A stretch of DNA of 43,056 bases from Deltaproteobacteria bacterium (GTDB lineage: Bacteria; Desulfobacterota; GWC2-55-46; JAJCZF01): NCBI GenBank assembly GCA_029262475.1, contig JAJCZG010000007.1:1-43056 (forward strand). Reading direction: 5' to 3'. Shown one piece after another: positions 25,928-40,997 of the stretch. Each line of letters starts with the position of its first letter. The first letter of the stretch is position 1. The notes beneath the pieces are model-generated. The model was not told the DNA's origin, searched no databases, and saw only the letters and a program-made list of their open reading frames with translations. The position numbers were made by a program, and so were the translations under genes.

Positions 25928-26065
25928 AAAAAAATTACGGGCGGTATTGATAGCCAGGCACCCTTGCGGCACATAAACAAAGACACTACCGTTGCTTCCT
26001 TCCGGACCTGGCGGGGTTCGCATCACGTATATTGCGCAAGACCCGGCTATCAATACCACCCGTAA
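25928..26065 (-). ncRNA. ffs: Signal recognition particle 4.5S-type RNA with its terminator
   Basis: The minus strand contains the universal SRP core CCAGGTCCGGAAGGAAGCA. The RNA ends pair over about 21 bases: TTACGGGTGGTATTGATAGC (from 26065) with its near-perfect complement at 25935-25955. This gives one long hairpin of about 131 nt, a little larger than E. coli 4.5S and without the Alu domain of Bacillus scRNA. The closing stem is followed by seven T residues (25934-25928), so it serves as its own terminator. SRP RNA binds Ffh for co-translational membrane targeting. It lies directly upstream of dnaX. Confidence 0.94.
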
Positions 26066-26239: not shown

Positions 26240-26329
26240 TGGCGGAGAGAGAGGGATTCGAACCCTCGGTACAGGTTAGTGTACACACGCTTTCCAGGCG
26301 AGCCCCTTCAGCCACTCGGGCATCTCTCC
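26240..26329 (-). tRNA. tRNA-Ser (anticodon GGA)
   Basis: The 90-nt gene has a seven-pair acceptor stem (GGAGAGA with TCTCTCC), discriminator G and an encoded CCA. It has the Ser-type D-arm GAGTGGCTGAAGGGG and a long variable arm. The T-arm is GGTTCGAATCC, and the anticodon loop CTGGAAA gives GGA (UCU/UCC codons). One oddity is a T-T mismatch at the second pair of the anticodon stem (CTCGC with GCGTG), where other Ser(GGA) tRNAs have A-T. Confidence 0.95.
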
Positions 26330-26668
26330 ATAAATCGTAAAGACTATCTATATTTTGGGGTTTCGAAAGACTCTACCCCGAATGCTCGGCGCTAGGGAGG
26401 CTTCCAGTCCTCCCGTACAACCTCTTATAATTGTTAAAAATGCGGGCCTACTTTAAAACTCGCCCAACTTGCTGGCGGAGAGAGAGGGATTCCTCTACAC
26501 TCCGAGCCGTCCTGGCTCCTCGCTTCGAGCCGGCCACCCTCACTTCCGGCGGCTTCCATGCCGCCTCATCCTCGCATGCTCGGCCTTCGGGCGGCTTCGA
26601 ATCCCCCCTTTGCAATATCATGTGTCTGTAAAAAAACAGGCTTTTTCTTTAAAACTCGCCCAACTTGC
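26330..26668. repeat. Spacer between the two tRNA-Ser genes with repeated and inverted fragments
   Basis: The spacer contains a perfect 42-base copy (26451-26492) of the 3' end and flank of tRNA-Ser(CGA) (26647-26688). It also carries a motif GGCCTTCxGGCGGCTTC near 26582-26600 that recurs imperfectly near 26147-26165. Short inverted repeats are present (GGCGGC/GCCGCC around 26540, GGCTC/GAGCC around 26510). No believable protein is encoded; apparent reading frames across it merely translate tRNA-flank sequence. Confidence 0.75.
26469..26492 (-). pseudogene. Truncated tRNA-Ser 3' fragment
   Basis: On the minus strand 26488-26469 is identical to the last 20 nt of the neighbouring tRNA-Ser(CGA), including the CCA end. 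After GAATCCC, however, the T-arm and the rest of the tRNA are replaced by unrelated sequence. It is part of the 42-base direct repeat and cannot form a tRNA. Confidence 0.8.
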
Positions 26669-26759
26669 TGGCGGAGAGAGAGGGATTCGAACCCCCGGTA
26701 CCGCGTAACGGTACAACTGATTTCGAGTCAGCCCCCTTCAGCCTCTCGGGCATCTCTCC
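26669..26759 (-). tRNA. tRNA-Ser (anticodon CGA)
   Basis: The 91-nt gene has the same acceptor stem as the GGA gene (GGAGAGA with TCTCTCC), discriminator G and encoded CCA. It has the D-arm GAGAGGCTGAAGGGGG and a long variable arm pairing GTACC with GGTAC. The anticodon loop CTCGAAA gives CGA (UCG codon). The 3' side has T-rich tracts (minus strand, around 26650-26630) that could end transcription. It is the first element of the tRNA-Ser, SRP RNA, dnaX run. Confidence 0.95.
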
Positions 26760-26809: not shown

Positions 26810-27385
26810 TCAGTTATTCGGCAGCAGTACCAGGCCGTACCTGGTGTCCCCGTAGGAGTTGAAGTCAGGGAGCTTTTCAAAGATCCAGCCCGTAGAGACG
26901 ACCTTGTCGCCTTCCTGGAGTTCCACCTGTATGGCCGGGTTATTCGGCTCATTGGACCTTGATACAATGGCATCCTCGGAGAGGGCGTAATCAGGGACAT
27001 ATGCCTTAACCAGAAGGTAGAGGCCATCACCCTTTAGCGATACTTTTTGTCCGACGTTTACCTTGATGGCCTTCTTCTGGCCAGCGGTATTGTCAGATAT
27101 TTCAAGGTTAACGACCTTCCACTTTGCGATCACCTCATCGTCGAGCTGAAGCTTTCTGGCGCTCTTCAAGTTGGAATGTGAACCGGCCGGCATGGCATTA
27201 TCTTCCGGGGCGATAGACGGATGCCCCTCCGGAAGCTCGCCGGAAGTTACTTCGGCTGTTGCCGCAGGCTTATCCGCCGCCTTCTTCTGCGGGGCGGAGT
27301 CGTCACTCCCGCAAGAGGTTGTCAGAAATAGAGCCAGTGCCGCGGTTAAACAGATGCCTTTTAATGGACTGAGTGAATATTTCAT
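26810..27385 (-). CDS. DUF2155-like lipoprotein
   Basis: The 191-residue product has a lipoprotein signal (basic start, hydrophobic ALALFLTTSCG with cysteine at about 25), so it should be anchored in the envelope. A short Ala/Pro-rich linker follows. The C-terminal domain (about 85-190: KWKVVNLEISDNTAGQKKAI, VSLKGDGLYLLVKAYVPDY, SNEPNNPAIQVEL, GWIFEKLPDF) resembles DUF2155 proteins of deltaproteobacteria. No function is known. The SD (GGAGG) is good. It lies about 130 bases past the peptidase gene on the same strand and may belong to the same cluster. Confidence 0.75.
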   Translation of the reverse strand: MKYSLSPLKGICLTAALALFLTTSCGSDDSAPQKKAADKPAATAEVTSGELPEGHPSIAPEDNAMPAGSHSNLKSARKLQLDDEVIAKWKVVNLEISDNTAGQKKAIKVNVGQKVSLKGDGLYLLVKAYVPDYALSEDAIVSRSNEPNNPAIQVELQEGDKVVSTGWIFEKLPDFNSYGDTRYGLVLLPNN

Positions 27386-27516
27386 AGTTTTAAATTACCT
27401 CCAGAAAAATTGTATTTAATGTCCCTTCAGTATTAATCTTCTCGGTGACATTCGAGTGTACCACCAAAAACATTAATATTAAAGAAAAAAATAACCGACA
27501 TAGAGATTACGTTCTA

Positions 27517-29106
27517 TCATCTCATGACCGAATTTCTCCAGCCATCCTCGAAGTCGTCATATGACAAATATATTGAGCTCCTTATGGCATCGTTTACGCT
27601 CTCACCCTCTGAGAGGTGCTCAAAAATCCACATGACGGACGAACGGCCAAACTCCTCCAGCATATACTCGACAGCCGAAAGGCTCAAAAGATACGCCACG
27701 TGGGCCTGTCTCGAATCGAGGCCCATGAAGGAGCCCTCAAGGTTTTTTAGCGTGATCTTGTTCGTGCCGAGGATCGCCTTTAGCTCACCCTCCCTGGAGT
27801 CGGTCCTCCTTCCCTCCACATACTGGGCAAACCCCTCGTTAAGCCATACCGGAGGTCTCCTCCCCTTGGTCACCCTGTGGACCACGGCATGAGTATATTC
27901 GTGGAAGAGAACGCCTTCAAGCAGATCGGTCTTCTCGGTCACGCCGCCGGCAGGCATCTTTATCCGGCCGTCGTATATCGCCCCGGCCCACGAAGGGCTC
28001 CTCGTAGTATCCTGAAACTGAACCTTAGTGTAGAGGATCGCTACGATGCTGTCCTCCGGATAGAAACCGTACTCGTAACCCACTCTCATATACGCCTCTT
28101 CAAGGAGAAGAGAGATAAGGTGTCCGGCCACAGCGTTCTCCCCTGACTCGTACTTTACTATAAAATGGCTTCCCTCCTTGGTGCGAAACGCCTCCTCAAC
28201 CTTCGTCTCCGAACTTATCTCGTCAAACCAGGCGTTTAGGCGGTCGTTCTCAGGGGCAATGGCAAGACCTTTCTTTACGTAAGAGAGGGCCCCGGAGATG
28301 TCTCCGTCCCGGTAGGCGGCTCCGGTGAGATGATCGTAGAGAGAGACAAGTACCCTATCTACCTCGCTCTCCGCACCTTCCCTTACTTCGAGGATCAGTT
28401 GAAGGGCCTCCTCGTACTCATCGAGCTTCATATATGTATTGGCAAGCCCCTTAATCGCAGGAAGCTCCCTGGAATAGGATAGCGCGGTCATGAATTTGTC
28501 CTTCGCCCCATCAAGGTCGCCATCTTCGAGGGCTATGAATCCAAGCCCCGATATGCTGAAAGAAAGATTTTTATTGATGACAGGGTCGTCCGGCCAGTCG
28601 AAGAGGGCATCTTCGAGAAGCTCCCTCGCCTTTGCGTACCGTTTTGAGTTTATCAGCTTTGTCGCTTCGTTAACAAGTGAAACGTATGAAGCGTCCTCGG
28701 CGTCGTCAACGGTGAGACTGCCGGTGGAGGCGACTATATCTTCACTGCTTGCATAGGCGGGGATGGCCGCAGGAGCTCTGCCGAGCGTTACCTCGCCGTA
28801 CGGGTTCGCGTCACTTATTCCTTCGATTTCGTCTGGATGATGGGATTGCCTTGATGAATAGAAATAATAGCCAGTGCCGCAAATGAGGATCAAGATGAGG
28901 ATAAAGAGGGTTCCGCTGCGCCCGCCCGAGCTCTTCTCGCCTGGAAGAGTTACTGGTGGAGTCGCACTCCGGTGAGGCGTACCCTTACGAGAACCCCCGC
29001 CAACCGGGCTGGCCGGGGTGGAGGACTGGGAGATGAGGTCGGCGGCGCACTTTGTACAAACCTCCGTGCCATCCGGCAGGTTTGTCCAGCAACTCAGGCA
29101 ATACAT
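27517..29106 (-). CDS. Membrane-anchored TPR metallopeptidase with N-terminal zinc ribbon
   Basis: The 529-residue product starts with a zinc ribbon (C3, C6, C17, C20). A Ser/Pro linker and one membrane helix (about 65-84, LFILILILICGTGYYF) follow, and then TPR-like helices (about 130-300). The C-terminal domain is a gluzincin-type peptidase of the MA-like group with HEYTH at 402-406 and the third ligand E424 in WLNEGFAQYVEG. The topology suggests a cytoplasmic zinc ribbon and an extracytoplasmic peptidase. Its ATG overlaps the stop of the GAF gene (TAATG), so the two are translationally coupled. Substrate unknown. Confidence 0.82.
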   Translation of the reverse strand: MYCLSCWTNLPDGTEVCTKCAADLISQSSTPASPVGGGSRKGTPHRSATPPVTLPGEKSSGGRSGTLFILILILICGTGYYFYSSRQSHHPDEIEGISDANPYGEVTLGRAPAAIPAYASSEDIVASTGSLTVDDAEDASYVSLVNEATKLINSKRYAKARELLEDALFDWPDDPVINKNLSFSISGLGFIALEDGDLDGAKDKFMTALSYSRELPAIKGLANTYMKLDEYEEALQLILEVREGAESEVDRVLVSLYDHLTGAAYRDGDISGALSYVKKGLAIAPENDRLNAWFDEISSETKVEEAFRTKEGSHFIVKYESGENAVAGHLISLLLEEAYMRVGYEYGFYPEDSIVAILYTKVQFQDTTRSPSWAGAIYDGRIKMPAGGVTEKTDLLEGVLFHEYTHAVVHRVTKGRRPPVWLNEGFAQYVEGRRTDSREGELKAILGTNKITLKNLEGSFMGLDSRQAHVAYLLSLSAVEYMLEEFGRSSVMWIFEHLSEGESVNDAIRSSIYLSYDDFEDGWRNSVMR

Positions 29107-29819
29107 TAACGCCTCTTACGCATCTTTACCGCTCCGAGGATCAAGTTCGCGATGACGCTTACAAAGTATATCTCGTCTTCCTTGAACTCACGTTTTATAA
29201 CTGTTTGAGCGTTTAGCACACCGACCGGCTCGTCATCCGTAAATATCGGATAAGAGTACATGGACTTTAACCTGTACTGCTCTTCACGCGTCTCGGGGAA
29301 GATTTTATACCTTTTATCCTCGCTTACGTCAGCTACGAGAAGGGGTCTCTTCTCCTTTACCGCAGTGCCGGTAACACCCTCGCCAGGCTTTAGAGAAGCC
29401 TTTCCAACGGCGTCCTGCGACAGGCCGTGCGAAGCCCTCAGGACCATCTTTTCTCCGTCCCAGAGGTAGACGGAGCAGACATCGACGCCAAGCCTCTTGG
29501 CGGTCTTCTCGACGAGCGGCTTTAGGACCTCGTCCAGGTCGTAGTCCGAGGAGGCGAGCATGCTTATCTCTTCTATGGTGATAAGCTCCATCTGTTCCCT
29601 GTCGGCCCTGTCCAGCTGAAAGAAGAGCTCTCCCTTCTCACCGAACTTTATCTGCAAAAGATTGTCCTTGGAAAGGTTTGGGTTTATCGCCCTTGAAGCC
29701 GAAGGTGCCGGGGCGTAATCAATAAAGCCACAGCCGCATGTAGTCTTCACATGATAGTTGTCAAGCCTTGTGCTCTTCATCTTATTGCCGCATTTTCTGC
29801 ACCTGAATATCTTTTCCAA
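29106..29819 (-). CDS. GAF-domain protein with N-terminal zinc ribbon
   Basis: The 237-residue product has a short zinc ribbon at its start (CRKCGNKM and CGCG, about 7-33). A GAF domain follows (about 80-235: ISMLASSDYDLDEVLKPLVE, VDVCSVYLWDGEKMVLRASH, GEGVTGTAVKEKRPLLVADV, VGVLNAQTVI). GAF domains sense small molecules or dimerise, and the ligand cannot be told here. No output domain is attached, so it probably works with a partner. The start is TTG at 29817-29819, with GAGAGG about nine bases upstream. It overlaps the zinc-ribbon peptidase gene, suggesting a shared role. Confidence 0.82.
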   Translation of the reverse strand: MEKIFRCRKCGNKMKSTRLDNYHVKTTCGCGFIDYAPAPSASRAINPNLSKDNLLQIKFGEKGELFFQLDRADREQMELITIEEISMLASSDYDLDEVLKPLVEKTAKRLGVDVCSVYLWDGEKMVLRASHGLSQDAVGKASLKPGEGVTGTAVKEKRPLLVADVSEDKRYKIFPETREEQYRLKSMYSYPIFTDDEPVGVLNAQTVIKREFKEDEIYFVSVIANLILGAVKMRKRR

Positions 29820-29888
29820 AACAAAAACCTCTCAGTAAGTTAATCTTGCCGGTTTAGTATTACTAAAGCACGAACTATTTAACGTACC

Positions 29889-31358
29889 CTAGAAATCGTC
29901 TTCCATAAGGTCTATTTCTTCGCTCGGGGCTTCTGGTACTTCTTTGCTCACATCTGCGCCCTCCGAAGGTAGCGCTTCTTCTACGGAAGGTACATCGGCG
30001 GCCTCCCCGTCCACTACCCCAGATGCAGGAGCGTCCGCAGGAAGCTCCTGATTAAGCTCTGTCGTCCCCTCCGGCACTTCTTTCGGCACATCACCATTTA
30101 CAGGCGGAGTCGCGCCCGCTTCGTCCGTTATTAAAAAAGGCTCCTCATCAGTGGCGGCATCGTTAACGACCGGTGTCTCCGACGGGGAAGGGGCATTCTC
30201 TGCCTCTTCTTTCACCACACCAGGTGCGGCAGGGGCATTCTCATTACTAGCCGGGAGAGCCTCAGCCGTCTCGGAGGTCTCGGCCACCTCGGATGGGATG
30301 GAATCTTCCTTTACCACATCTTCTTCAATAGGAGCCTCTTTTACGGCATCCTCCAAAGGCTTAATTATCTCTTTACTAACCTCCTGTGCCTTCTCGGGTA
30401 CAACCTTCTTCTTAACGACGACAGGCGGGAGACTTACCCCCTCAGGGAAGCTTACCCTGACGGTCTTACCAACCCCGCCCGGCGAACCCATATCAACGCC
30501 GTCAAATGTAAGCGTTACACCTCCGGCGTTACCCAGAAGGACGGAAAAACCCTTTTCGCCGCTCCACTTTGCGCTCTCTCCCGGTTGCAGGAGCACCTCT
30601 TTGGACTTTACGCCGTCTATCTCTACCCTCATCCAGGTAGCTGCATTTGCAACCGCAACGAGGGTATGACCCGACTCGGGGGTAGCGACCACTAAAGTCG
30701 GCTTTGCGAGAGGCTCTTCCTTAATTGCTTTTTTAGTAACCGGTGGCTTTACCGCCCTGCTGGCGTCTTTCTTAACCACCGAAGGCTTAAGAGAAGCTAC
30801 CGTCCCATCATCTGCTTCGCTGACCTTGGCCGCCTCTACCGGCTCGGGAGAAACTTTATCCTGAACCCCGAGTCCTTCCCCTTCGCCTGCGTCCCCGTGC
30901 GGGGCTATCGCCTGGGACTCGGCGTCGCCAGACAAGGTGGCAACTTCTAACGGACCGGAGAAGATAAAATAAGCGATAGCTCCAAGAACTACCACTACGA
31001 TAATGGCGGCAGCTATGGACTGTTTCTTCCTATGCTCTCCCGATTTCTCCCTGGGCCGCCCCGCAATCGTAGCGGGTGGATAGGTTACGGGCAAAGCACT
31101 CTCCAGTTCGATATCGTCGTAGAACTCTTTTCTATAGTCCTCGTAACGCAAAACGATGTCGTTATCGTCAAGCCCCAGGTATTTTGCGTAGGCCCTGAAG
31201 AAACCTTTTACGAATGTAGAGTGCGGGAGTTCTTCGTAATCATCGGCCTCAAGCGCCTTCAAAAGCTTGGCCTGAACCTTGATAGCCTCTGAAACATCTT
31301 GAAGGGATATCTCCCTGAGCTTTCGCTCCCTTCTTATATATTCGCCTGGTGATTCCAT
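29889..31358 (-). CDS. RodZ-like HTH membrane protein with long acidic C-terminal tail
   Basis: RodZ links MreB to the membrane in cell-shape control. The 489-residue product has a cytoplasmic helix-turn-helix (1-75: LREISLQDVSEAIKVQAKLL, FVKGFFRAYAKYLGL), one membrane helix (about 113-134) and a Lys/Pro linker. A DUF4115-type domain (about 230-305, TWMRVEIDGVKSKEVLLQPG) follows. Unusually, DUF4115 is not the end: about 180 residues of Glu/Pro/Ala-rich, disordered sequence follow, ending EEIDLMEDDF. It lies between a PilF-like gene and the GAF gene. The RodZ fold is clear, but the function of this variant is inferred. Confidence 0.83.
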   Translation of the reverse strand: MESPGEYIRRERKLREISLQDVSEAIKVQAKLLKALEADDYEELPHSTFVKGFFRAYAKYLGLDDNDIVLRYEDYRKEFYDDIELESALPVTYPPATIAGRPREKSGEHRKKQSIAAAIIVVVVLGAIAYFIFSGPLEVATLSGDAESQAIAPHGDAGEGEGLGVQDKVSPEPVEAAKVSEADDGTVASLKPSVVKKDASRAVKPPVTKKAIKEEPLAKPTLVVATPESGHTLVAVANAATWMRVEIDGVKSKEVLLQPGESAKWSGEKGFSVLLGNAGGVTLTFDGVDMGSPGGVGKTVRVSFPEGVSLPPVVVKKKVVPEKAQEVSKEIIKPLEDAVKEAPIEEDVVKEDSIPSEVAETSETAEALPASNENAPAAPGVVKEEAENAPSPSETPVVNDAATDEEPFLITDEAGATPPVNGDVPKEVPEGTTELNQELPADAPASGVVDGEAADVPSVEEALPSEGADVSKEVPEAPSEEIDLMEDDF

Positions 31359-31530
31359 AGTTATATCTTATATTATTATACTAGATTATATGAAAGATGG
31401 GTTATAAAATTATAGAGAGGCGCAGTCAAATGCACGACTTTACCGGAGATAACGCGCCTTACTCGACACCTGTCACTTTAACAGCGCAAAGAAAGGCATG
31501 GAACAGAGACCGATTAAGCGCTGGCCCGCC

Positions 31531-32310
31531 CTATTTCATTATTTCAATATATTCCCTTGCCGACTCGGCCTCGCCTGTACCGGGGGCGACCTTAATCAAC
31601 TCCTCGAAGGTTTCAACGGACTCCGCGTTCCTGTTGAGATTCATAAGAAGAAAGCCCTTGTTGAAGTACGGGTTGGGGATAGCCGGGTTGGATTTCATTG
31701 CGGCGTCATAGGCGCTTAGCGCCTTATCCCACTTACTGAGCCTCTCGTAGGATAGTCCCATGTTGTTATAGGCCATCGTGTAATTCGACTGAATATCAAT
31801 GGCCTTCCTGTAATTGACAATCGATTGAAGAAATTCGCCCTTCTTAAATAACGCCCAGCCGATATTGTTGTAGGCGTTCTGCGGGGAGGGATAGAAGACG
31901 TTATTAAAGACATTCTCGGCGGCTGCGATAGCGAGATCCCACTTCCCTTCTTCTATGAAGACGGAGCTGAGATTTAAGAAGGCTTCCGAGTATTTGGGAT
32001 TAAGCGCAACGGCCTTTTTGTAATTAAATTCAGCCTCTTCGTTCATCCTCTTGAGGAAGTAAGCGGTTCCGAGAGCGTTATAGTAGGTCGGTTCGTCTGG
32101 AAAGATCTTTACTGCCTCGGTAAGCTCCCTAAGGGAGTCGCCGAGCTTTTGCTCCTCCAGGTAGATCAGTCCCATCTTATAGTGGACATCCGCCTGGTCC
32201 TTGATTGTGACCTCGTTATTAACAGAATTCTTCGTGGCAGGTGTGCAAGATATCGCCATGAATAAAATGAGAAGTAAAAAAGTGCTGAATCTTACCTGGT
32301 TAAGGCTCAT
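31531..32310 (-). CDS. PilF/PilW-like TPR lipoprotein
   Basis: The 259-residue product has a lipoprotein signal with lipobox LFMAISC (cysteine at about 22). It then has about six consecutive TPR repeats (for example VHYKMGLIYLEEQKLGDSLR, YYNALGTAYFLKRMNEEAEF, AYNNMGLSYERLSKWDKALS). This architecture is that of type IV pilus pilotins, which are outer-membrane lipoproteins that help assemble the secretin. No other pilus gene is in the window, so a general envelope scaffold is also possible. It precedes the RodZ-like gene by about 170 bases. Confidence 0.78.
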   Translation of the reverse strand: MSLNQVRFSTFLLLILFMAISCTPATKNSVNNEVTIKDQADVHYKMGLIYLEEQKLGDSLRELTEAVKIFPDEPTYYNALGTAYFLKRMNEEAEFNYKKAVALNPKYSEAFLNLSSVFIEEGKWDLAIAAAENVFNNVFYPSPQNAYNNIGWALFKKGEFLQSIVNYRKAIDIQSNYTMAYNNMGLSYERLSKWDKALSAYDAAMKSNPAIPNPYFNKGFLLMNLNRNAESVETFEELIKVAPGTGEAESAREYIEIMK

Positions 32311-32361: not shown

Positions 32362-33270
32362 TCACAGACTTTCGAAATGGGTCAACCGCTTAAACTCTCC
32401 GAACCTGGCGTTAATCTCCTGTCTCGTAAGTGATTTAAGCCTGTCGAGGCTAAAGGCCTCGACGTTAAACGACGCCATTGTGCTGCCAAATATTATGGCC
32501 TGCCTGAGGCCCTCTTCCGTAATATCGCCGGTATTGGCTATGTAACCCATGAGGCCTCCGGCGAATGTATCGCCTGCGCCCGTAGGGTCGAAGATATCTT
32601 CGAGCGGGTAGGCCGGGGCAGAAAATATCGACGGGCCGTTGAACATAAGGGCGCCGTACTCGCCGCGCTTGACGATGAGAATCCTCGGGCCGCCGTCCAT
32701 GATCTTTGCAGCGGCCTTAACGAGGCTCGCCTCACCGGCGAACTCCCTCGCCTCGCCCTCGTTTATGACGACGAGGTCTACCTTTTTGAAGAGCTCCCCA
32801 AGTACCTCGGGCTTACTCTCTATCCAGAAATTCATTGTGTCGCAGGCAATGAACTTCGGGTTTTTTACCTGCTCCAGGACTTTAAGCTGGAGCTCCGGGT
32901 CGATATTGGCGAGGAAGAGAAACTCTGCGTCCCTGTAGCTCTCCGGGAGGACCGGGTTAAAGTCGCTAAAGACATTAAGGTGAGTCTCCAGGGTATGGGC
33001 CTGGTTCAGGTCGAAGTCGTAACGCCCCTTCCACCGAAATGTCTCTCCCGGAACCCTCGTAAGCCCTTCAAGGTCAACCCCTCTCTCTTCTAAAACGGCG
33101 ACGTGCTCGTCGGGGAAATCCTCACCTACCACCGCTACGAGGCTAACGTCGGTAAAGTAACTAGCTGAAGTTGAAAAATACGTAGCCGAACCTCCAAGCA
33201 CGTCGTCGGCCTTACCAAACGGCGTCTCGACACTATCGAAGGCCACTGAACCCACGACCAATATACTCAT
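32362..33270 (-). CDS. PfkB-family carbohydrate/nucleoside kinase
   Basis: The 302-residue product is a ribokinase-fold kinase. The N-terminal VVGSVAFDSVETPFG with LGGSATYFS fits the substrate side. The C-terminal signature DPTGAGDTFAGG (228-239) holds the catalytic base D234 and the anion hole. KRGEYGALMF is the usual preceding strand. The substrate is not certain. Its place directly downstream of mtnP, 34 bases away, suggests a nucleoside or pentose from purine or methylthioadenosine salvage. It does not resemble the APH-type methylthioribose kinase MtnK. Confidence 0.88.
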   Translation of the reverse strand: MSILVVGSVAFDSVETPFGKADDVLGGSATYFSTSASYFTDVSLVAVVGEDFPDEHVAVLEERGVDLEGLTRVPGETFRWKGRYDFDLNQAHTLETHLNVFSDFNPVLPESYRDAEFLFLANIDPELQLKVLEQVKNPKFIACDTMNFWIESKPEVLGELFKKVDLVVINEGEAREFAGEASLVKAAAKIMDGGPRILIVKRGEYGALMFNGPSIFSAPAYPLEDIFDPTGAGDTFAGGLMGYIANTGDITEEGLRQAIIFGSTMASFNVEAFSLDRLKSLTRQEINARFGEFKRLTHFESL

Positions 33271-33304: not shown

Positions 33305-34165
33305 TTAAAGATACTTGCCGAGAAGAAGGTCCACGGCGTCTCTAGTCTTCCGAGGTATGGTGGACTTGTCGGTAACGACGGCGTACTGCATAGCGTTTAC
33401 GCAGCCGCACCCCCTCGGGGAAGAGATCCTTCCGACCGCCTCCTTTATAATAGCCTTGGATGTGGAGACGTTCTTGGATATCGTTTCGAGAATCATCTCG
33501 ACCGTCACCGACTCCTCTTCCTCGTGCCAGCAATCATAATCCGTAGAGAGGGCGAGCACGCCGTAGCATATCTCCGCCTCTCTTGCGAGCTTGGCTTCCG
33601 GGATATTCGTCATGCCTATTACACTTACGCCCCAGGACCTATAGACAAGCGACTCGGCCCTCGTCGAGAACTGCGGCCCCTCTATGCAGACGTATGTCCC
33701 GCCCTTGTGCATCGTTGCCCCGGCAGATAAACCGGCGTCGTATAAGGCACTGCTTAGAGCGCCGCAGACAGGGTCCCCGAACTCCACGTGCCCGACTATG
33801 CCGTCGCCAAAAAAAGTAGAAGCGCGCGCCTTGGTCCTGTCGAAGAACTGATCGACAACTACGATGTGCCCTGGCTCTATCTCTTCCTTCATGCTCCCTA
33901 CGGCGGATACAGAGATTATGTGGTCTACACCGAGCTTCTTCATGCCGTAGATATTGGCGCGGTAGTTGATCTCCGAAGGCAAAACCCTGTGCCCCCTGCC
34001 GTGCCTCGGCAAGAAGACCATATCAACCCCGTCGAGCACGCCGGTGATGAATTTATCAGATGGATCGCCGAAGGGGGTCTCGACACTTACTTCTTTAATA
34101 CTGGAGAGCCCTTCCATCTCGTAGAGCCCGCTCCCGCCAATTACGCCGATAACCTTCTCTGTCAT
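33305..34165 (-). CDS. mtnP: S-methyl-5'-thioadenosine phosphorylase
   Basis: This PNP/MTAP-family enzyme splits 5'-methylthioadenosine with phosphate into adenine and methylthioribose 1-phosphate. The 286-residue product has IGVIGGSGLY at the start, FLPRHGRGHRVLPSEINYRA, CIEGPQFSTRAES and GMTNIPEAKLAREAEICYG. The motif STDYDCW is the one typical of MTA over purine nucleoside substrates. The ATG at 34163-34165 is chosen because AAGGAG lies eight bases upstream; a TTG at 34198 would add 11 residues without support. It is followed by the PfkB kinase. Confidence 0.92.
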   Translation of the reverse strand: MTEKVIGVIGGSGLYEMEGLSSIKEVSVETPFGDPSDKFITGVLDGVDMVFLPRHGRGHRVLPSEINYRANIYGMKKLGVDHIISVSAVGSMKEEIEPGHIVVVDQFFDRTKARASTFFGDGIVGHVEFGDPVCGALSSALYDAGLSAGATMHKGGTYVCIEGPQFSTRAESLVYRSWGVSVIGMTNIPEAKLAREAEICYGVLALSTDYDCWHEEEESVTVEMILETISKNVSTSKAIIKEAVGRISSPRGCGCVNAMQYAVVTDKSTIPRKTRDAVDLLLGKYL

Positions 34166-34198
34166 CTTTAAAACTCCTTGAAAAATATTATATTTCAA

Positions 34199-34430
34199 AA
34201 CTTTTTTAGTAGAAAAAAACTGCCTATATTGACCTGTTCTTTTAACATCATTATTGCTTTCCGGTCAAGGGCTTTCCACATAGAAAGGAAGCGGCTGGCG
34301 TTTCACTGAGCGCACCGTAACGCCGGAGCCTCTCCCAGGCCGTACGCCCTGGAAGTGCGAGTCTTTATGAGTAACTGAAATAAGACGGTAGACGACGATC
34401 TGAACTCTTGGACAAAGAGGCCCGAAATTT
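34199..34430. other. Non-coding stretch with hairpins, possible small RNA
   Basis: No gene is visible in these 232 bases. The plus strand can form a strong stem GGCT-GGCGTT (34292-34301) with AACGCC-GG-AGCC (34319-34330). Next to it is a second hairpin, CCAGG (34335-34339) with CCTGG (34348-34352). A plus-strand TTGACC-17-TATTGC element (34229-34257) lies just upstream, and TTGACC recurs inverted as GGTCAA (34263-34268). Whether it is transcribed, and on which strand, is open. Confidence 0.3.
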
Positions 34431-34465
34431 AAAAAGGCCCCCGGTACTAAAGTACCGGGGGCCTT
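34431..34465 (-). terminator. Intrinsic terminator of cspA (possibly bidirectional)
   Basis: A perfect 14-base-pair stem (34434-34447 with 34452-34465, AAGGCCCCCGGTAC and complement) has a TAAA loop. On the minus strand it is followed by TTT and further A/T bases. On the plus strand the flank CCTTAAATT is weaker but could also stop transcription from the non-coding stretch. Confidence 0.88.
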
Positions 34466-34487
34466 AAATTGACGTTTTGACTAAACC

Positions 34488-34691
34488 TTAGACCTGGCCT
34501 ATAACGTTTGCCGCCTGGGGTCCCTTGGGTCCCTGGGTTATCTCAAACTCAACCCTCTGGCCTTCCCTGAGGGTCTTAAAGCCGTCCCCGGTGATTGCGC
34601 TGTAGTGTACGAATACGTCTTCACCGGACTCCTGCTCAATAAAACCGAAGCCCTTGGATTCATTAAACCACTTAACTACTCCTTCTGCCAT
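34488..34691 (-). CDS. cspA: Cold shock-like RNA chaperone CspA family
   Basis: The 67-residue product is a single cold-shock domain that binds single-stranded RNA and DNA. It has [20 protein letters not shown] (RNP1, KGFGFI), DVFVHYSAI (RNP2, VFVHY) and the C-terminal [10 protein letters not shown]. Length is exactly the usual 66-70. The SD AAGGAGG is strong. The promoter at 34798-34826 leaves a leader of about 100 bases, in line with the long structured leaders of cold-shock mRNAs. Which member of the family it is cannot be told. Confidence 0.96.
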
Positions 34692-34797
34692 TGCACAAAT
34701 CCTCCTTTCTTAAAATTTCATAAGCCTTGGGGGTTTTGCACACGAGATGAAATACCCAGATTGCTAACAAACCCTTGGAAAACTTATTGATTTATTA

Positions 34798-34826
34798 CTT
34801 ATATTAATAATAGAATAGAAAGTCAA
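34798..34826 (-). promoter_or_regulatory. Sigma-70 promoter of cspA
   Basis: On the minus strand TTGACT (34821-34826) and TATAAG (34798-34803) are 17 bases apart in a very A/T-rich surround. Transcription would start near 34791, giving about 100 bases of leader before the cspA ATG. Confidence 0.72.
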
Positions 34827-34931
34827 GGGTTTTATTAATATTTAATCATAAAAAATCGAGATATTTTCAGCCCTTAAGAATGCTCACTTATGAAGCAGCT
34901 TAAAGTCGCTAAGATCAGATAAAGAAGAGAT

Positions 34932-36467
34932 ATGGCAAACGATAATAAATTTATAACATACACCGCCCTTTTGGCTATAATCGCTATATCAATCGCCCTT
35001 AGACTCTCATCAATGGGCGAGGTAATCTGCGGAGATATAAGCATCTACTCGTATATGAGCCACGAGATGCTTACGGGCAAATTACTCTATACCGAACTAT
35101 GGGACCATAAGCCCCCCGGTGTGCTATGGCTCTACATGCTCGGTGAGCTTATCTGGGGTTACGGCCCGAATGCATCTACATATCTCGGCCTTGTCTTTAC
35201 CCCAGTTACCATTATCTTCATATTCCTGATACTACGCGGGCTGTCAAATGTCAAAACAGCGCTCCTGGGCGCGCTCCTTTGGGCTCTCGCCTCGAACTCC
35301 GTAGCCCTCGAGGCGAACCAGACCAATAGCGAACTCTTTATAAACGCCTTTGTCGTCATCGGCCTGTGGGCCTTTATAGAGGCATTTAAAAGAGACCGTA
35401 AAAAAAACCTCTATTATCTCGTCTCCGGCACGGCCTTCGCCATAGCTACTGTAATAAAGATGGTCGCGGTATTCCCGCTCGCAGCCCTCTGCGTATACCT
35501 CCTGATAGACGCAAGACGAGGCAGAATGGCCGGGACTACCGGTTTAGGAGACGCAGTAAGGTCGATAATAACACTCTCCGTACCAGTCTTTATCCTCTGG
35601 CTACTCGTATTCGGGTACTTCCTTCTACTTGGCCGCTTCAATGACTTCTGGAGCGTGGTATTCGCCTATAACTCCGGGTACTCGGGGAGTATCCTTTTAA
35701 ATGTATGGGAGTTCCTGGCAAACCCGAGGGCGCTATTCCGCCAACACCTGAAAGACGTCTGGATTCTCGTTATCCTCTCTTTTGCGTGGGCGATAGTTAG
35801 CAGGCGCGAGTACGGGCCGGTAAAGAGGTCTATGCTTACTCTATTCCTCATCGGGGTGATAGTCGAGATAGCGAGCCCCGGCAGGTTTTTTTCGCACTAC
35901 TACCAGCTCGCCTTCCCGCCACTGGTTATTCTGGCGTCCCTGGCCTTTTACGACCTCTGGGAGTACTTTAAAAAGGCTACACCCGGGGCACCAAGGCTCG
36001 CCCTTGCGGCAGTTATTCTCTTTACGCTAGCGAACCTTATATACTACCAGGCTTACTACATAAAGATCGGCCCAGAGGAGAGATCGCGCCATAAGTACAA
36101 GGAGAGGTTCAACGACGCCCACAGGGTCGCAAACTTTGTTAAAGAAAGTACCGCGCCATGCGAGACGATATATAACTGGGGCGACGAGACGATACTCCTC
36201 TACTACAGTAAGAGGAGCTCCGCTTCGGGGTTATTTAACCTCTACCCGCTCCGTAACGACACGGAGGCCGGGAGAAGTGAGAAGCTCGAAAGAGTCCGTA
36301 GCGACCTAACGGCTGCGCCCCCGGCTATGATCGTATGGCAAAGGAACTTCGAGGCGGTCGAGACGAGCGTACTAAATAAATTCGTCAGAGAAAATTACAC
36401 GCTAATGAAGAGCTATAAAAAGTACGATATATACGAGTATAAGTTCAGGAAAGGGTGCGGCCGGTAG
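34932..36467 (+). CDS. Membrane glycosyltransferase, PMT/ArnT-like (GT39/GT83-type)
   Basis: The 511-residue product has about ten to twelve membrane helices and the first-loop motif of GT-C enzymes (D35 in CGDISIYSYMSHEMLTGK, then LWDHKPPG at 57-63). Such enzymes transfer sugars from polyprenyl-phosphate donors on the periplasmic side to lipid A, glycans or proteins. The acceptor is unknown. The ATG follows AAGAAGAG in the expected place. It starts a plus-strand pair with the following GT9 gene (57 bases apart), so a surface-glycan role is likely. Confidence 0.82.
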   Translation: MANDNKFITYTALLAIIAISIALRLSSMGEVICGDISIYSYMSHEMLTGKLLYTELWDHKPPGVLWLYMLGELIWGYGPNASTYLGLVFTPVTIIFIFLILRGLSNVKTALLGALLWALASNSVALEANQTNSELFINAFVVIGLWAFIEAFKRDRKKNLYYLVSGTAFAIATVIKMVAVFPLAALCVYLLIDARRGRMAGTTGLGDAVRSIITLSVPVFILWLLVFGYFLLLGRFNDFWSVVFAYNSGYSGSILLNVWEFLANPRALFRQHLKDVWILVILSFAWAIVSRREYGPVKRSMLTLFLIGVIVEIASPGRFFSHYYQLAFPPLVILASLAFYDLWEYFKKATPGAPRLALAAVILFTLANLIYYQAYYIKIGPEERSRHKYKERFNDAHRVANFVKESTAPCETIYNWGDETILLYYSKRSSASGLFNLYPLRNDTEAGRSEKLERVRSDLTAAPPAMIVWQRNFEAVETSVLNKFVRENYTLMKSYKKYDIYEYKFRKGCGR

Positions 36468-36524
36468 CGACATGCGCCCCGAAGAGACGGCTTTGAGCGA
36501 TAATTTCAGAAAAACGGATAATAG

Positions 36525-37697
36525 ATGAAGATAAATTTCATGAGGATAGCAGACTACTGGGTAGGTAAACCCCTCTGCCTGATACTATCCATAATACCCG
36601 CCATTAAGGGGCTCAGGGGCGCTAACGAAAGCCCGCTCGACAAAAGGGACGGCCCGGATAAAGTCCTCTTCATAAAGCTCTTCGGCATAGGCTCCATCAT
36701 ACTCTCCTACCCGGCTGTAACGGCATTTAAAGAGCGCTTTCCCAATACGCGGTGCTACTACCTGACATTTGCATCTAATAGAGGGATTATCGAGATACTC
36801 GGCCTTGCCGCAGAGGAGGATATAATAACGATACGCGATAATTCGATAATAACGGTCATGATAGACGCCGTCAGGGCACTCAGGCGTATAAAGCGCGAAG
36901 CCATACCCGTTACAGTGGATTTCGAGTTCTTCTCCCGCTTTACGGCGATATTCGCATACCTCTCCGGTGCGGCAGACAGGGTTGGCTTTTATAACTACCA
37001 CACAGAGGGGTTATCGCGCGGTAAGGTCATAAACGTACCGGTATCATATAACCACACCAAGCATACATCCGAGGTCTTTTCTCATCTCACCGAGGCGCTA
37101 GGGGCCGCAGAGGCCGGAGATAAACTCCCGGTCGTAGATACGGGTAGCCCACCGCTCGCTGGCGAGCTCGGTGAGTTCAAGTTAAGGATCATCTTTAATA
37201 CCGCATCAAGCGACCTTATAAGCCTTCGGAGCTGGACCCTGGAGCATTTTTCGCGCCTGGCGGACCTTACGCTCGACGCCTACCCTGATGCGGCAGTAAT
37301 ATTTACAGGAACAAAGAACGAGAAGGGAAGCGTAAAGGCCGTTATAGAAGGGATAACTAACCCGGATAAGAGAGAGCGCGTATTCGACCTCTCCGGAGAG
37401 ACGACATTAGAAGAGCTTATAGCCTTATTCGCCGCCTCGGATATTATCGTAACGATAGACAGCGGCACCGCCCACATGGCTTCACTTACGGATACTCCGA
37501 TAATAGACCTCTTCGGCCCGGAGACCCCGGCCCTCTACGGCCCCCTTGGCGGGAACTCGACCAATATCTATATGGGCCTCCCATGCCAGCCATGTATATC
37601 GGTATTTAACGGCAAGCACTCCCACTGTACGGATAATATCTGCATGCAGCAGATCACCACCGAAGCCGTACTCAAGCTAATTAAAGACTCCCTCTAG
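36525..37697 (+). CDS. Glycosyltransferase family 9 (heptosyltransferase-like)
   Basis: The 390-residue product has the two-domain GT-B pattern of ADP-heptose:LPS heptosyltransferases. The N-terminal block is VLFIKLFGIGSIILSYPAV, and the C-terminal donor-site block is IVTIDSGTAHMASL followed by DLFGPETPALYGPL. The final Cys-rich stretch (LPCQPCISVFNG, HCTDNICM) is common in this family. It is a cytoplasmic, membrane-associated enzyme that adds a heptose or similar sugar. It ends only 11 bases from the convergent minus-strand glycosyltransferase, with no terminator between. Confidence 0.88.
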   Translation: MKINFMRIADYWVGKPLCLILSIIPAIKGLRGANESPLDKRDGPDKVLFIKLFGIGSIILSYPAVTAFKERFPNTRCYYLTFASNRGIIEILGLAAEEDIITIRDNSIITVMIDAVRALRRIKREAIPVTVDFEFFSRFTAIFAYLSGAADRVGFYNYHTEGLSRGKVINVPVSYNHTKHTSEVFSHLTEALGAAEAGDKLPVVDTGSPPLAGELGEFKLRIIFNTASSDLISLRSWTLEHFSRLADLTLDAYPDAAVIFTGTKNEKGSVKAVIEGITNPDKRERVFDLSGETTLEELIALFAASDIIVTIDSGTAHMASLTDTPIIDLFGPETPALYGPLGGNSTNIYMGLPCQPCISVFNGKHSHCTDNICMQQITTEAVLKLIKDSL

Positions 37698-37708
37698 ACG
37701 CTCGGCCA

Positions 37709-39913
37709 CTACTCCTCGCCTCCCGGCTGCTCCACTCCGGCTCCTGCACCTTCAGCGTCTACTTCAGGCAAAGGCTCAGGCTTTATCACAGGTATGAAGG
37801 TAGTCTCCGGCACAGGCACAACAACCACAGGCAAAAGCTCAGACTCTTCCACCGCCTTAAACGCAGGCTCTGTTGCAGGCTCAGGCATTGGCGGAGGCAT
37901 TTCTTCTGGCTTTGGCTTTGGCTTTCGCTTTGGCGTAAAGACCCTGAAACCCATGTAATGAAAGCGTGTATCAAGGGCGTAGTTCTCCATGATATGCCTG
38001 TAGACGAGCGGCACCTGAATACTTGGCGGCATGTCGTCAATCCTATCCATCCGGTCGAGCTTATAGAGTATATAGTCGGGTTTATTCCTTACGAGGTCAC
38101 GCACTATCTCGGCCTGCATCCCGGTCGTTACGGCCCAGTAGGGGTAATCAAAGCGCGTTGGATTTCGTTTATCGAGCAAAAAATAATAGAAGGGAACGTT
38201 TCCGAAGACGTAGACCGTATCCGCCAGGGTTAGATTAGACTTGAAGCCGAGGAGTTCTTCTACCTGCGCAGAGGTGCGCCGGGGCATATAGACTCCTCCC
38301 GTCTCGGGAGTGTCAACTTGAACGAATCCGGGGCGCGGTACTGCGGAGAATTTATCGCTAATCTCCGTAATATTCACCCTTACGAACTCGCGCGGGGCCT
38401 TTTTATTAAAGTTCGTAAGCACAAAGAAGGCCGGCATGGCAAATATTACGCAAAATATTATAAGGGCCTTTACCCTATCCTTAACGCTTGAACCGCCAAA
38501 CGTAACATCTGCGAGATACGCGAGGACGAAGAAGGCAGGCGCGTAGACCTGCACAAGGTGAAAACCATCCGAACGCCCTAGGGCCGAACGGAAGGTTATC
38601 ACACCGTAGGTAAGCACGGCGAAGAAGAATAGCTCCCTCCTCGAATAACGCCCCTTAAAGACGTTAAGCGCGATAACCAGAAGGCCAACGGCGTAGATTA
38701 CAGGCGGCATGGCGAAGACCACGGGGTAACGTAAACGCCCAAACGGTAAGTCGTCCGCGACAAAACCCTTTACCGCCGAAAAGATATCCGGTGCCGGAAC
38801 GGCGGCGTAGCCGAGCATCACGTAGCGCGGGTACTCAAGTATCGTCTGGAGGAAGGGCCAAAGCGCGTCGTTTAAAGCAAAAAATATTATAAACGGGGTA
38901 ATCACTGCGAAGAAGCCTAAGATAAAGAGAGCGGCCTCTATAAGAGCGCTCCGTATCTTACTCATCCCCCTTACGGGTACGGAGACGATTAAGAGGGAGA
39001 CGGCGGCGAGGAGAGCGGCGAGCCCGTTCTCCTGACTATAGAGGAAGGCCAGGCCTGTAACCGCGCCCGCTAAGAGCACGAGATAACGCCTCGGTGAAGA
39101 GGCGTACCGGTATAAAAGATAAAAACTTACAAAGGGGATAAAGAGCCTTAGAGGAGTGGCGTTTACCGAAAGTTTAACAGGGAAGTAAAAGGCGAGGAGC
39201 GTAAGCGCCAGTAACGCCGCGTGAAGCGGTCTCCTTAATACCGCAAAGGGCACCGTGCCGATTACGAGGGCCGTCAGAGCGTAAGTAAAGAAGGCGTAGA
39301 GCCTCGCGCTCCAGAGGTTTACGCCGAAGATGTCCATGAAGAAGGCGAGGCCGTACTGCATAAGCGGCCCGTAGAGGCAGAAGGTATCCCTGTAGAGAAC
39401 CTTACCGGAGAGTATAGCCTTAGCCCAGGAGACATTCTCCCCCTGCTCTCCGAAGAGGTACCATTCGCTAATCCAGTAGCTCGTAAAATAGGCTCCGTGA
39501 AATGAGAGGAAGAGCGCGGCGAGCGCGGCTACTATGAACCACCTATAGCGAATGGGCGTTTGTACACTCGCCAGAGACTCAAATTGTTCCCACTCGCGCC
39601 TTGAGAGCATGTACCTGTAGAGCGCCCAGAAGATCGCCGCCGTAGCCGGGGTGAAGAAGAGGAAGATTAAATAGTACTGCACCTCCATCGCCTTTGGATA
39701 GCCCGAGAGGATGGTAATGCTCACGATACCCAGCTCCCTCGCCTTATCGAGCGCCTCGGTCGATACCGGCCAGAGGCTTATCACCAGGAGGCTAAGCGAG
39801 AGGCCGGCGAGTAACCCCAGGAAGACGGCCAAAACCTCTCCCGGCGTATATCTCTCATATCGTCTCACGGAACTTTCCATAACCCCCTGAGGTCTAAATA
39901 AACCCTTAACCAT
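37709..39913 (-). CDS. Large polytopic glycosyltransferase-like membrane protein
   Basis: The 734-residue product has about twelve membrane helices. A GT-C-like first-loop stretch (about 155-184: GEQGENVSWAKAILSGKVLY, then RDTFCLYGPL) resembles that of the plus-strand GT39-type enzyme. A periplasmic C-terminal domain ends in a Pro/Glu-rich tail of about 70 residues (KPKPKPEEMPPPMPEP, then KPEPLPEVD). The substrate is unknown. Its ATG overlaps the 3' end of rlmN by eight bases. An internal ATG at residue 12 is a possible alternative start. Confidence 0.72.
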   Translation of the reverse strand: MVKGLFRPQGVMESSVRRYERYTPGEVLAVFLGLLAGLSLSLLVISLWPVSTEALDKARELGIVSITILSGYPKAMEVQYYLIFLFFTPATAAIFWALYRYMLSRREWEQFESLASVQTPIRYRWFIVAALAALFLSFHGAYFTSYWISEWYLFGEQGENVSWAKAILSGKVLYRDTFCLYGPLMQYGLAFFMDIFGVNLWSARLYAFFTYALTALVIGTVPFAVLRRPLHAALLALTLLAFYFPVKLSVNATPLRLFIPFVSFYLLYRYASSPRRYLVLLAGAVTGLAFLYSQENGLAALLAAVSLLIVSVPVRGMSKIRSALIEAALFILGFFAVITPFIIFFALNDALWPFLQTILEYPRYVMLGYAAVPAPDIFSAVKGFVADDLPFGRLRYPVVFAMPPVIYAVGLLVIALNVFKGRYSRRELFFFAVLTYGVITFRSALGRSDGFHLVQVYAPAFFVLAYLADVTFGGSSVKDRVKALIIFCVIFAMPAFFVLTNFNKKAPREFVRVNITEISDKFSAVPRPGFVQVDTPETGGVYMPRRTSAQVEELLGFKSNLTLADTVYVFGNVPFYYFLLDKRNPTRFDYPYWAVTTGMQAEIVRDLVRNKPDYILYKLDRMDRIDDMPPSIQVPLVYRHIMENYALDTRFHYMGFRVFTPKRKPKPKPEEMPPPMPEPATEPAFKAVEESELLPVVVVPVPETTFIPVIKPEPLPEVDAEGAGAGVEQPGGEE

Positions 39914-40997
39914 TGGCCGCCTTGCCCTTTAGCTGTCCGCAGGCCGCAGATATCTCGGAACCCTTGCTCTGTCTCATAACCACTACGTAACCGTTCTTAT
40001 ATAGGATATCCCTGAAGAGTGAGACGGCCTCCTCGTCCGGGCGCTCGAAAGAGGCTCCGGGGTGCGGGTTAAACGGTATTATATTGATCTTGCATTTTAC
40101 GGGCTTTAGGAGTTTGGCGAGGCGGCGGGCATCCTCCGGCGAGTCGTTTACTCCCTTTAGAAGGACGTATTCTATCGTAATATAACGCCCCTTTGAGAGC
40201 GGGTACTTCCGTAGCGCCCTTATAAGCTCTGATATCGGATATTTCTTATTTATCGGCATCAACCGGTCCCTCAAGGCATCGGTCGTGGCGTTTAGCGATA
40301 CGGCCAGGCTTATCTTCGATGCAAAGCCGAATTTCCTAATCGCCGGCACGATACCGGCGGTGGAGAGCGTAACCCTCCTCGGCGAGAGGCCAAAACCCTT
40401 CGGGTCTATGAGGATATCGGTGAACTTAAGGACCTCGTCGTAATTAAGAAACGGCTCTCCCATGCCCATAAGGACGAGATTCGTTATGCTCGCGCCTTCG
40501 GGCAAAAGTGTATTTGCGGCTATTACCTGAGAAGTAAGCTCGGAGAGGGAAAGGTTCCTCCCCGCCCCGCCCGAACCTGTCATACAGAAGGCGCAGGCAA
40601 GCGAGCACCCGGCCTGGGTCGAGACACAGAGCGTCATCCTCTCGCCCTCTGGTATTATCACCGACTCGACGAGACTTCCGTCATGGAGTTTCAAGGTGAA
40701 CTTTATCGTGCCGTCGGAGGCGGCCTCCCTTGCGTCGATCTCTGGAGCGTGAAGCGTAAAGCGCTCCCTCAGGAGCGCTCTAAAGTCAAAGGATATATCT
40801 GTCATCTGATCTATATCCGTCGCCCCGCGCGAAAAGAGCCACGCATAAAGTTGCGCACCACGGTAAGGTTTTGCCCCCATCGACGTTACACTGTCCTTTA
40901 GCCCTTCAAGGGTAAGGTCGCGCAAATCGGAGCGACTTGTCTTTTTATCGGCTTCTATCTTCATCCCCACCCATGAATTCCTTATATAAATCACCAT
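39906..40997 (-). CDS. rlmN: Dual-specificity rRNA/tRNA adenine-C2 methyltransferase RlmN
   Basis: RlmN methylates C2 of A2503 in 23S rRNA and A37 in some tRNAs by radical SAM chemistry. The cluster motif C131-x3-C135-x2-C138 lies in TQAGCSLACAFCMTG. Other family marks are LVLMGMGEPFLNYDEV, LSTAGIVPAI, the catalytic cysteine of SAACGQL near residue 353, and INIIPFNPHPG. An AGGAA seven bases before an internal GTG (residue 10, at 40970) suggests that the true start may be there and not at the ATG at 40997. It overlaps the membrane glycosyltransferase gene downstream. Confidence 0.94.
   Translation of the reverse strand: MVIYIRNSWVGMKIEADKKTSRSDLRDLTLEGLKDSVTSMGAKPYRGAQLYAWLFSRGATDIDQMTDISFDFRALLRERFTLHAPEIDAREAASDGTIKFTLKLHDGSLVESVIIPEGERMTLCVSTQAGCSLACAFCMTGSGGAGRNLSLSELTSQVIAANTLLPEGASITNLVLMGMGEPFLNYDEVLKFTDILIDPKGFGLSPRRVTLSTAGIVPAIRKFGFASKISLAVSLNATTDALRDRLMPINKKYPISELIRALRKYPLSKGRYITIEYVLLKGVNDSPEDARRLAKLLKPVKCKINIIPFNPHPGASFERPDEEAVSLFRDILYKNGYVVVMRQSKGSEISAACGQLKGKAANG

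Follow-up and report, generated by a model that had tools for sequence, protein, structure and literature searches.

How growth conditions reach the MreB-RodZ system is a standing question, and it is raised by a gene cluster of a Deltaproteobacteria bacterium (assembly GCA_029262475.1) in which the RodZ gene is followed directly by the gene of a predicted cytosolic sensor. The window is the full stretch of 43,056 nucleotides (nt) of contig JAJCZG010000007.1, and the cluster lies on its minus strand at positions 26810-32310, where the order of transcription is a PilF/Tgl-like lipoprotein with tetratricopeptide repeats (TPRs), RodZ, a zinc-ribbon GAF protein that we call ZnR-GAF, a TPR metallopeptidase, and a further lipoprotein. 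RodZ positions MreB, and PilF-type lipoproteins build secretins. A first-pass annotation of this DNA described the five same-strand genes, all of which are present, and proposed that the GAF protein and the metallopeptidase might form an envelope-sensing unit. The cluster is real and is better conserved than the sequence alone showed, and the emphasis moves from the GAF-peptidase pair to the PilF-RodZ-sensor part, since the GAF gene is firmly associated with RodZ and PilF. With a probability of roughly 0.4, we propose that the conserved core of the locus consists of the PilF/Tgl-like lipoprotein, RodZ and ZnR-GAF, and that ZnR-GAF is a cytosolic metabolite sensor-adaptor that would tune envelope assembly. 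The genes concerned, and the elements within them, are the following (lengths in amino acids, aa).

31531..32310, minus strand: PilF/Tgl-like TPR lipoprotein, 259 aa (NCBIfam similarity, lipobox-like AISC, TPRs)
29889..31358, minus strand: RodZ, 489 aa, with HTH_25, a membrane segment, RodZ_C and a long acidic C-terminal tail (Pfam)
29106..29819, minus strand: ZnR-GAF, 237 aa, which starts with TTG and lacks an output domain (sequence, Pfam, alignment)
29730..29801, minus strand: N-terminal CxxC...CxC knuckles of ZnR-GAF, residues 7-30 (four invariant cysteines)
29139..29540, minus strand: GAF domain of ZnR-GAF, residues 94-227, PtsP-like (Pfam GAF, 53-row tree)
27517..29106, minus strand: membrane-anchored TPR/Peptidase_MA_2 metallopeptidase, 529 aa (Pfam, AlphaFold, alignment of 34 sequences)
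29047..29100, minus strand: CxxC...CxxC knuckles of the peptidase, residues 3-20 (sequence; confident in the AlphaFold model)
28849..28920, minus strand: membrane helix of the peptidase, residues 63-86 (AlphaFold helix, hydrophobic segment)
27889..27903, minus strand: HEYTH zinc/catalytic motif of the peptidase, followed by the WLNEG glutamate (conservation)
26810..27385, minus strand: lipoprotein, distantly DUF2155-like, 191 aa (lipobox Cys25, DUF2155 profile)

RodZ and PilF as conserved neighbours of ZnR-GAF

Two overlapping sets of genomes describe the locus within the class of the window. The first comprises 59 relative genomes that were searched for ZnR-GAF and the peptidase, and a close homologue of ZnR-GAF is found in 52 of them (53 places, two partial). 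The second comprises 49 loci from uncultured metagenome-assembled genomes, and 47 of these loci have a GAF open reading frame (ORF); L146 is truncated and L149 is unrelated. The gene directly upstream of ZnR-GAF is RodZ in 43 of these 47 loci, with a median gap of 98 nt, and the gene directly downstream is the peptidase in 33, with a median gap of 12 nt and an overlap in nine of the 33. The five-gene arrangement is no mere coincidence, as it recurs across the class, and its PilF-RodZ-GAF part recurs beyond it. Among 297 genomes of the phylum, full-length ZnR-GAF (positions 1-3 to 236) is present in 17, of which 12 belong to the class and 5 do not; it was also found in 29 of 195 genomes drawn from a sister class, that of genome G206. 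Outside the class, 30 genomes were inspected (these 29 and G296); all of them retain the order PilF-RodZ-ZnR-GAF, and the nearest upstream gene of ZnR-GAF in every one of their loci is RodZ.

Both partners are named with care. The PilF-like protein has a lipobox-type signal (AISC) and tandem TPRs, according to its sequence and TPR profile matches, and so possesses the architecture of a pilotin lipoprotein; because it stays under the NCBIfam equivalog cut-offs for Tgl (124.3 of 225 bits) and PilW (81 of 154 bits), it is labelled PilF/PilW/Tgl-like. RodZ exceeds the Pfam cut-offs for HTH_25 (75.4 bits) and RodZ_C (50.1 bits) and lies under the NCBIfam RodZ equivalog cut-offs (65.4 of 375 bits for the Streptococcus model; 22.9 of 208 bits), so that its name rests on domain architecture and carries no equivalog claim. 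The genome of the window also has an MreB gene and four secretin matches. Beyond RodZ_C, positions 29889-30450 of the RodZ gene encode about 187 acidic, proline-rich residues, and the length of RodZ varies widely among relatives.

ZnR-GAF and its closest relatives

Judged by its sequence, ZnR-GAF is a free-standing sensor composed of a GAF domain and N-terminal four-cysteine knuckles. The GAF domain scores 72.3 bits against a Pfam cut-off of 22.4 and was matched in each of 48 aligned homologues, which are 57-71% identical to the window protein, a conservation that exceeds that of the adjoining peptidase (34-52%). The cysteines C7, C10, C28 and C30 are invariant in all 48, and these knuckles, like those of the peptidase, are putative zinc ribbons; a comparison of the window protein with the Pfam zinc ribbons gave no match with E <0.1. 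Its AlphaFold model has a pLDDT of 79. Free methionine-R-sulfoxide reductase is a GAF-fold enzyme with conserved catalytic cysteines in the fold, and this identity was ruled out for ZnR-GAF because its GAF part has no invariant cysteine, the only invariant ones being the four of the knuckles.

The best matches of the ZnR-GAF profile in the PDB are 3E0Y from Geobacter sulfurreducens (E 2.1e-60) and then the PtsP GAF domains 3CI6 and 3TRC, and Foldseek gives the same ranking, with 3E0Y ahead of the PtsP GAFs. The identity between 3E0Y and ZnR-GAF is 42-43%, with a TM-score of 0.84-0.86 on its own length, and no reported function of 3E0Y was found in the literature listing. In a tree of 53 GAF domains, the ZnR-GAFs form one group (support 98/93), and a supported group (100/97) unites them with the PtsP GAFs and a single further sequence, L252; of the PtsP rows, L165 and L169 were confirmed through their PEP-utiliser domains, and the other seven were assigned by length and similarity. 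Enzyme I (PF05524) is present in 58 of 63 genomes of the class, and none of its open frames, listed for 58 places, is longer than 707 aa; most PtsP-like frames in the phylum draw have about 750 aa or more. The enzyme I of the class therefore seems to lack a GAF domain, and ZnR-GAF seems to be the sole PtsP-type GAF there. PtsP binds glutamine and alpha-ketoglutarate via its GAF domain, as stated in passages of a 2026 review (PMC13104625).

The metallopeptidase and the downstream lipoprotein

The GAF and peptidase genes overlap, as had been noted, in a TAATG at position 29106, where the stop of ZnR-GAF and the start of the peptidase share one base, and their adjacency holds among relatives. The peptidase was found in 37 of the 59 relative genomes (38 places), and in 37 of these places it adjoins ZnR-GAF on the same strand, the exception (G047) being a contig edge. 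The proposed link thus withstands the check suggested along with it, by which rare adjacency in other genomes would have left it unsupported. A search of 63 class genomes with PF13485 (Peptidase_MA_2) gave 41 places in 40 of them, 14 control genomes gave none, and in three genomes newly found in this way the peptidase again lies beside the GAF gene. The description of the protein as membrane-anchored, with TPRs and a HEYTH active site, also agrees with our results: it scores 58.2 bits with Peptidase_MA_2 (Pfam cut-off 32.4), and its AlphaFold model (pLDDT 84.4) presents a confident ribbon, a helix at residues 63-86, TPR helices and then the peptidase domain. No strong full-length match was found in the PDB. 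In an alignment of 34 homologues, 34-52% identical to the window protein, HEYxH is present in all 34, H402, E403, H406 and E424 are invariant, and an N-terminal hydrophobic segment scoring >1.6 is found in 33.

The claim that both overlapping partners carry a ribbon stands for the two window proteins, each of which has a pair of four-cysteine knuckles, and not for the peptidase family, since CxxC...CxxC occurs in only 8 of the 34 homologues; some of these are short forms that lack TPRs and begin with a signal-peptide-like segment. These counts bear on the proposal of a dedicated GAF-peptidase pair, in which the cytoplasmic zinc ribbons of both proteins would be in contact and the periplasmic peptidase would be the output. 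The strict adjacency, the short or negative gaps, and the placement of Peptidase_MA_2 beside the GAF gene at all but the contig-end place speak for such a pair; against it, 16 of the 52 genomes with ZnR-GAF have no peptidase by either search, and no peptidase lies beside the GAF gene within the stretch read in any of the 30 out-of-class loci, where the profile matches are TPR cross-matches on PilF. Ribbon-ribbon contact cannot be the general mechanism because so few peptidases have the ribbon, and the short forms without TPRs are a further difficulty. We regard the dedicated pair as quite unlikely, and because the peptidase is missing from these genomes and loci we reject it as the unit's core. 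We see it rather as an accessory specific to the class, probably co-translated with ZnR-GAF.

The lipoprotein that ends the cluster was aligned in a set of 25 (30 copies from relatives and the window protein, minus six left out to shorten it). Its lipobox Cys25 is invariant in all 25, and 17 match DUF2155 at E <= 0.1 (best 6.9e-05), with the window protein under the curated cut-off.

A second zinc-ribbon sensor at the same position

A survey of RodZ in the class of G206, based on the best 30 RodZ loci from 78 genomes searched, found a PilF homologue before RodZ in all 30 and, downstream of RodZ, ZnR-GAF in 11 loci and a zinc-ribbon receiver protein, ZnR-REC, in five. Zn_ribbon_4 and Response_reg are above cut-off in four of these five proteins (four were scanned). 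In a search of 195 genomes with a profile of the five sequences, 80 matched at E <= 1e-25 and 49 at E <= 1e-40, the latter with open frames of 168-264 aa; these 49 constitute the ZnR-REC set, and the 31 weaker matches, with listed frames of 172-540 aa, mostly >290, were dropped. ZnR-REC lies directly after RodZ in 23 of the 30 loci read. ZnR-GAF (29 genomes) and ZnR-REC (49) co-occur in none of the 195 genomes (naive hypergeometric p = 1e-4), a count that takes both 195-genome draws as one set, as their handles suggest. We do not claim that the two ribbons are homologous, given that their hhalign match covers only 9 columns of the knuckle (probability 42).

In the class of G206 (L208, L211, L287, L290), a conserved single-domain response regulator often comes after the slot, and in several loci a UspA-like gene does so too, both named by reading. 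These genes may belong to one circuit with the sensor.

A proposed route from cell state to envelope assembly

The genes, their domains and order, their conservation and the alternative sensor in the slot are observed, and from them we infer a ligand, a docking partner and a direction of signalling. The GAF domain of ZnR-GAF would bind a small metabolite, a step suggested by kinship: the GAF most akin to it is that of PtsP (EI-Ntr), which makes a reporter of the nitrogen or carbon state the most likely ligand. The N-terminal zinc ribbon would dock the protein on a constant partner encoded at the locus, the simplest candidate being the helix-turn-helix part of RodZ in the cytoplasm; docking on RodZ or its partners is what the gene order and the alternative ZnR-REC point to. 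The ligand state would then adjust envelope assembly, that is, MreB-RodZ elongation, a PilF-dependent secretin, or both, considering the known roles of RodZ and PilF elsewhere. In sister lineages with ZnR-REC in the slot, phosphorylation would replace ligand binding as the input, and in the class of the window the membrane-anchored periplasmic metallopeptidase and the lipoprotein would be accessory outputs acquired by the locus.

A more specific form of this proposal, which we find possible and yet doubtful, is that the PilF-RodZ locus holds a plug-in slot for a zinc-ribbon-tethered sensor whose GAF and receiver domains are swapped, so that a metabolite or a phosphorylation state would be passed to RodZ-MreB, with a protease output in one class. 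If true, the slot would be a direct nutrient input to cell shape, and the swap of GAF and receiver in one syntenic position predicts a common partner for both sensors. The locus suggests an undescribed route from the state of the cell to its envelope-building machinery, and the conserved sensor gene beside RodZ, with a crystallised relative in G. sulfurreducens, is a concrete candidate for the growth input to MreB-RodZ. Our literature search, on titles and the beginnings of abstracts, found no description of such a PilF-RodZ-sensor locus. For RodZ and zinc ribbons together, the passages obtained from PMC11237479 are unrelated to it, and in passages of a Geobacter Tn-Seq study (PMC5585712) the GAF protein named is the chemoreceptor esnA, GSU1704, whose architecture is unlike that of ZnR-GAF.

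Flanking genes and competing readings

Two conserved genes lie upstream of the cluster.

32362..33270, minus strand: PfkB-family sugar/nucleoside kinase, conserved upstream neighbour (Pfam PfkB 88.2 bits; syntenic)
33305..34198, minus strand: MTA/purine-nucleoside phosphorylase family (MTAP), conserved upstream neighbour (Pfam PNP_UDP_1 156 bits; syntenic)

Downstream are two tRNA-Ser genes, the signal recognition particle (SRP) RNA and dnaX-ybaB-recR, with dnaX recognised by reading its translation. The bacterial small SRP RNA (Rfam RF00169) and the tRNA-Ser genes occupy positions 25949-26048 and 26240-26759 of the minus strand, between the lipoprotein and dnaX, and a direct repeat of the 3' part of tRNA-Ser with its spacer is found near 26451-26492. 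An RlmN-like gene (39906-40997, by reading) has its homologue directly upstream of the MTAP-family gene in most relatives; in the window the two are separated by about 5.7 kb (34200-39906) that contains other genes. A scan for promoters and terminators gave no clear excess over shuffles. Genome G029 has two MTAP-PfkB-PilF-RodZ-GAF-peptidase clusters on different contigs (L096, L097), from a duplication or a mixed bin, and in family f8 (L080, L083, and also L143 and L145) two additional genes separate RodZ from ZnR-GAF, one of which, in L080, is distantly MTAP-like.

Several observations weigh against the sensor-adaptor reading. The first concerns gene order: the entire order MTAP-PfkB-PilF-RodZ-GAF is conserved, and adjacency may partly reflect slow gene-order decay. 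According to one alternative, the cluster is nothing else than such a slowly decaying syntenic block, and ZnR-GAF would be a regulator that binds nucleic acid or serves housekeeping, unconnected with RodZ and the peptidase. MTAP, PfkB and DnaX-YbaB-RecR are indeed housekeeping neighbours, and zinc ribbons often bind nucleic acid; however, the replacement of ZnR-GAF by another zinc-ribbon sensor in the slot and its confinement to few lineages, with 17 full-length matches in 297 phylum genomes, both favour a regulatory role at the locus over universal housekeeping. We hold this alternative to be unlikely.

The second concerns the partner. In 7 of the 30 ZnR-REC loci read, the sensor gene lies directly after PilF and RodZ is absent from the locus, while MreB is retained in all seven of these genomes, as in six others (13 of 13). 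The partner of the sensor may therefore be on the PilF side, or neither protein. A sensor tied to the PilF/Tgl side, whether a type IV pilus or another secretin, with RodZ merely lying between, would explain these seven loci and agrees with the four secretin matches of the window's genome. Yet PilF is a lipoprotein outside the cytoplasm and the sensor has no export signal, which makes direct contact between them unlikely, and in the 30 out-of-class ZnR-GAF loci it is always RodZ that lies nearest upstream; we consider this explanation improbable.

The remaining points limit how far the sensor-adaptor reading can be extended. Both sensors are clustered by family, so the p value for their mutual exclusion overstates the independent evidence, and a shared dock is not established because hhalign gives no ribbon homology. 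Four genomes of the sister class (G119, G153, G206 and G334) possess, besides ZnR-GAF, another GAF match whose frame length is PtsP-like, from which it follows that ZnR-GAF is not simply a detached PtsP sensor. Across 40 other families of the phylum, the genes after RodZ are different ones (RecO-, MgtE-, TyrRS- and PNP-like by reading), and none of the 35 families with a called ORF at this position (40 checked; several of the ORFs are probably spurious) has an N-terminal zinc ribbon there. These 40 families rule out ZnR-GAF as a general partner of RodZ across the phylum.

Comparison with known systems

Among solved structures, the closest relative of the GAF part of ZnR-GAF is 3E0Y, an orphan crystal structure described as a conserved domain protein of G. 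sulfurreducens PCA; its solved chain covers only the GAF part (query residues 69-236). By sequence, structure and tree alike, the next GAF family is that of PtsP, or EI-Ntr, of the nitrogen phosphotransferase system, and ZnR-GAF shares the stretch P-E-T-x-E-E-x-Y with the PtsP GAF 3CI6. Unlike PtsP, it has no phosphotransferase (PEP-utiliser) domains, is free-standing with a zinc ribbon, and adjoins RodZ. The zinc-ribbon receiver proteins (Zn_ribbon_4 with Response_reg) resemble it in occupying the slot downstream of PilF-RodZ in sister families and in combining a ribbon with a sensor domain, whereas they have a receiver in place of the GAF, and homology of the ribbons is unsupported. As in the Peptidase_MA_2 gluzincins, the peptidase of this locus has HExxH and the WLNEG glutamate and scores above the Pfam cut-off, but it differs from them by its membrane anchor and TPRs and by the N-terminal ribbon seen in 8 of 34 homologues. 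Finally, the locus shares with the RodZ-MreB elongation machinery a RodZ with its two Pfam domains and an MreB in the same genome, and differs from it in that a conserved cytosolic sensor gene adjoins RodZ.

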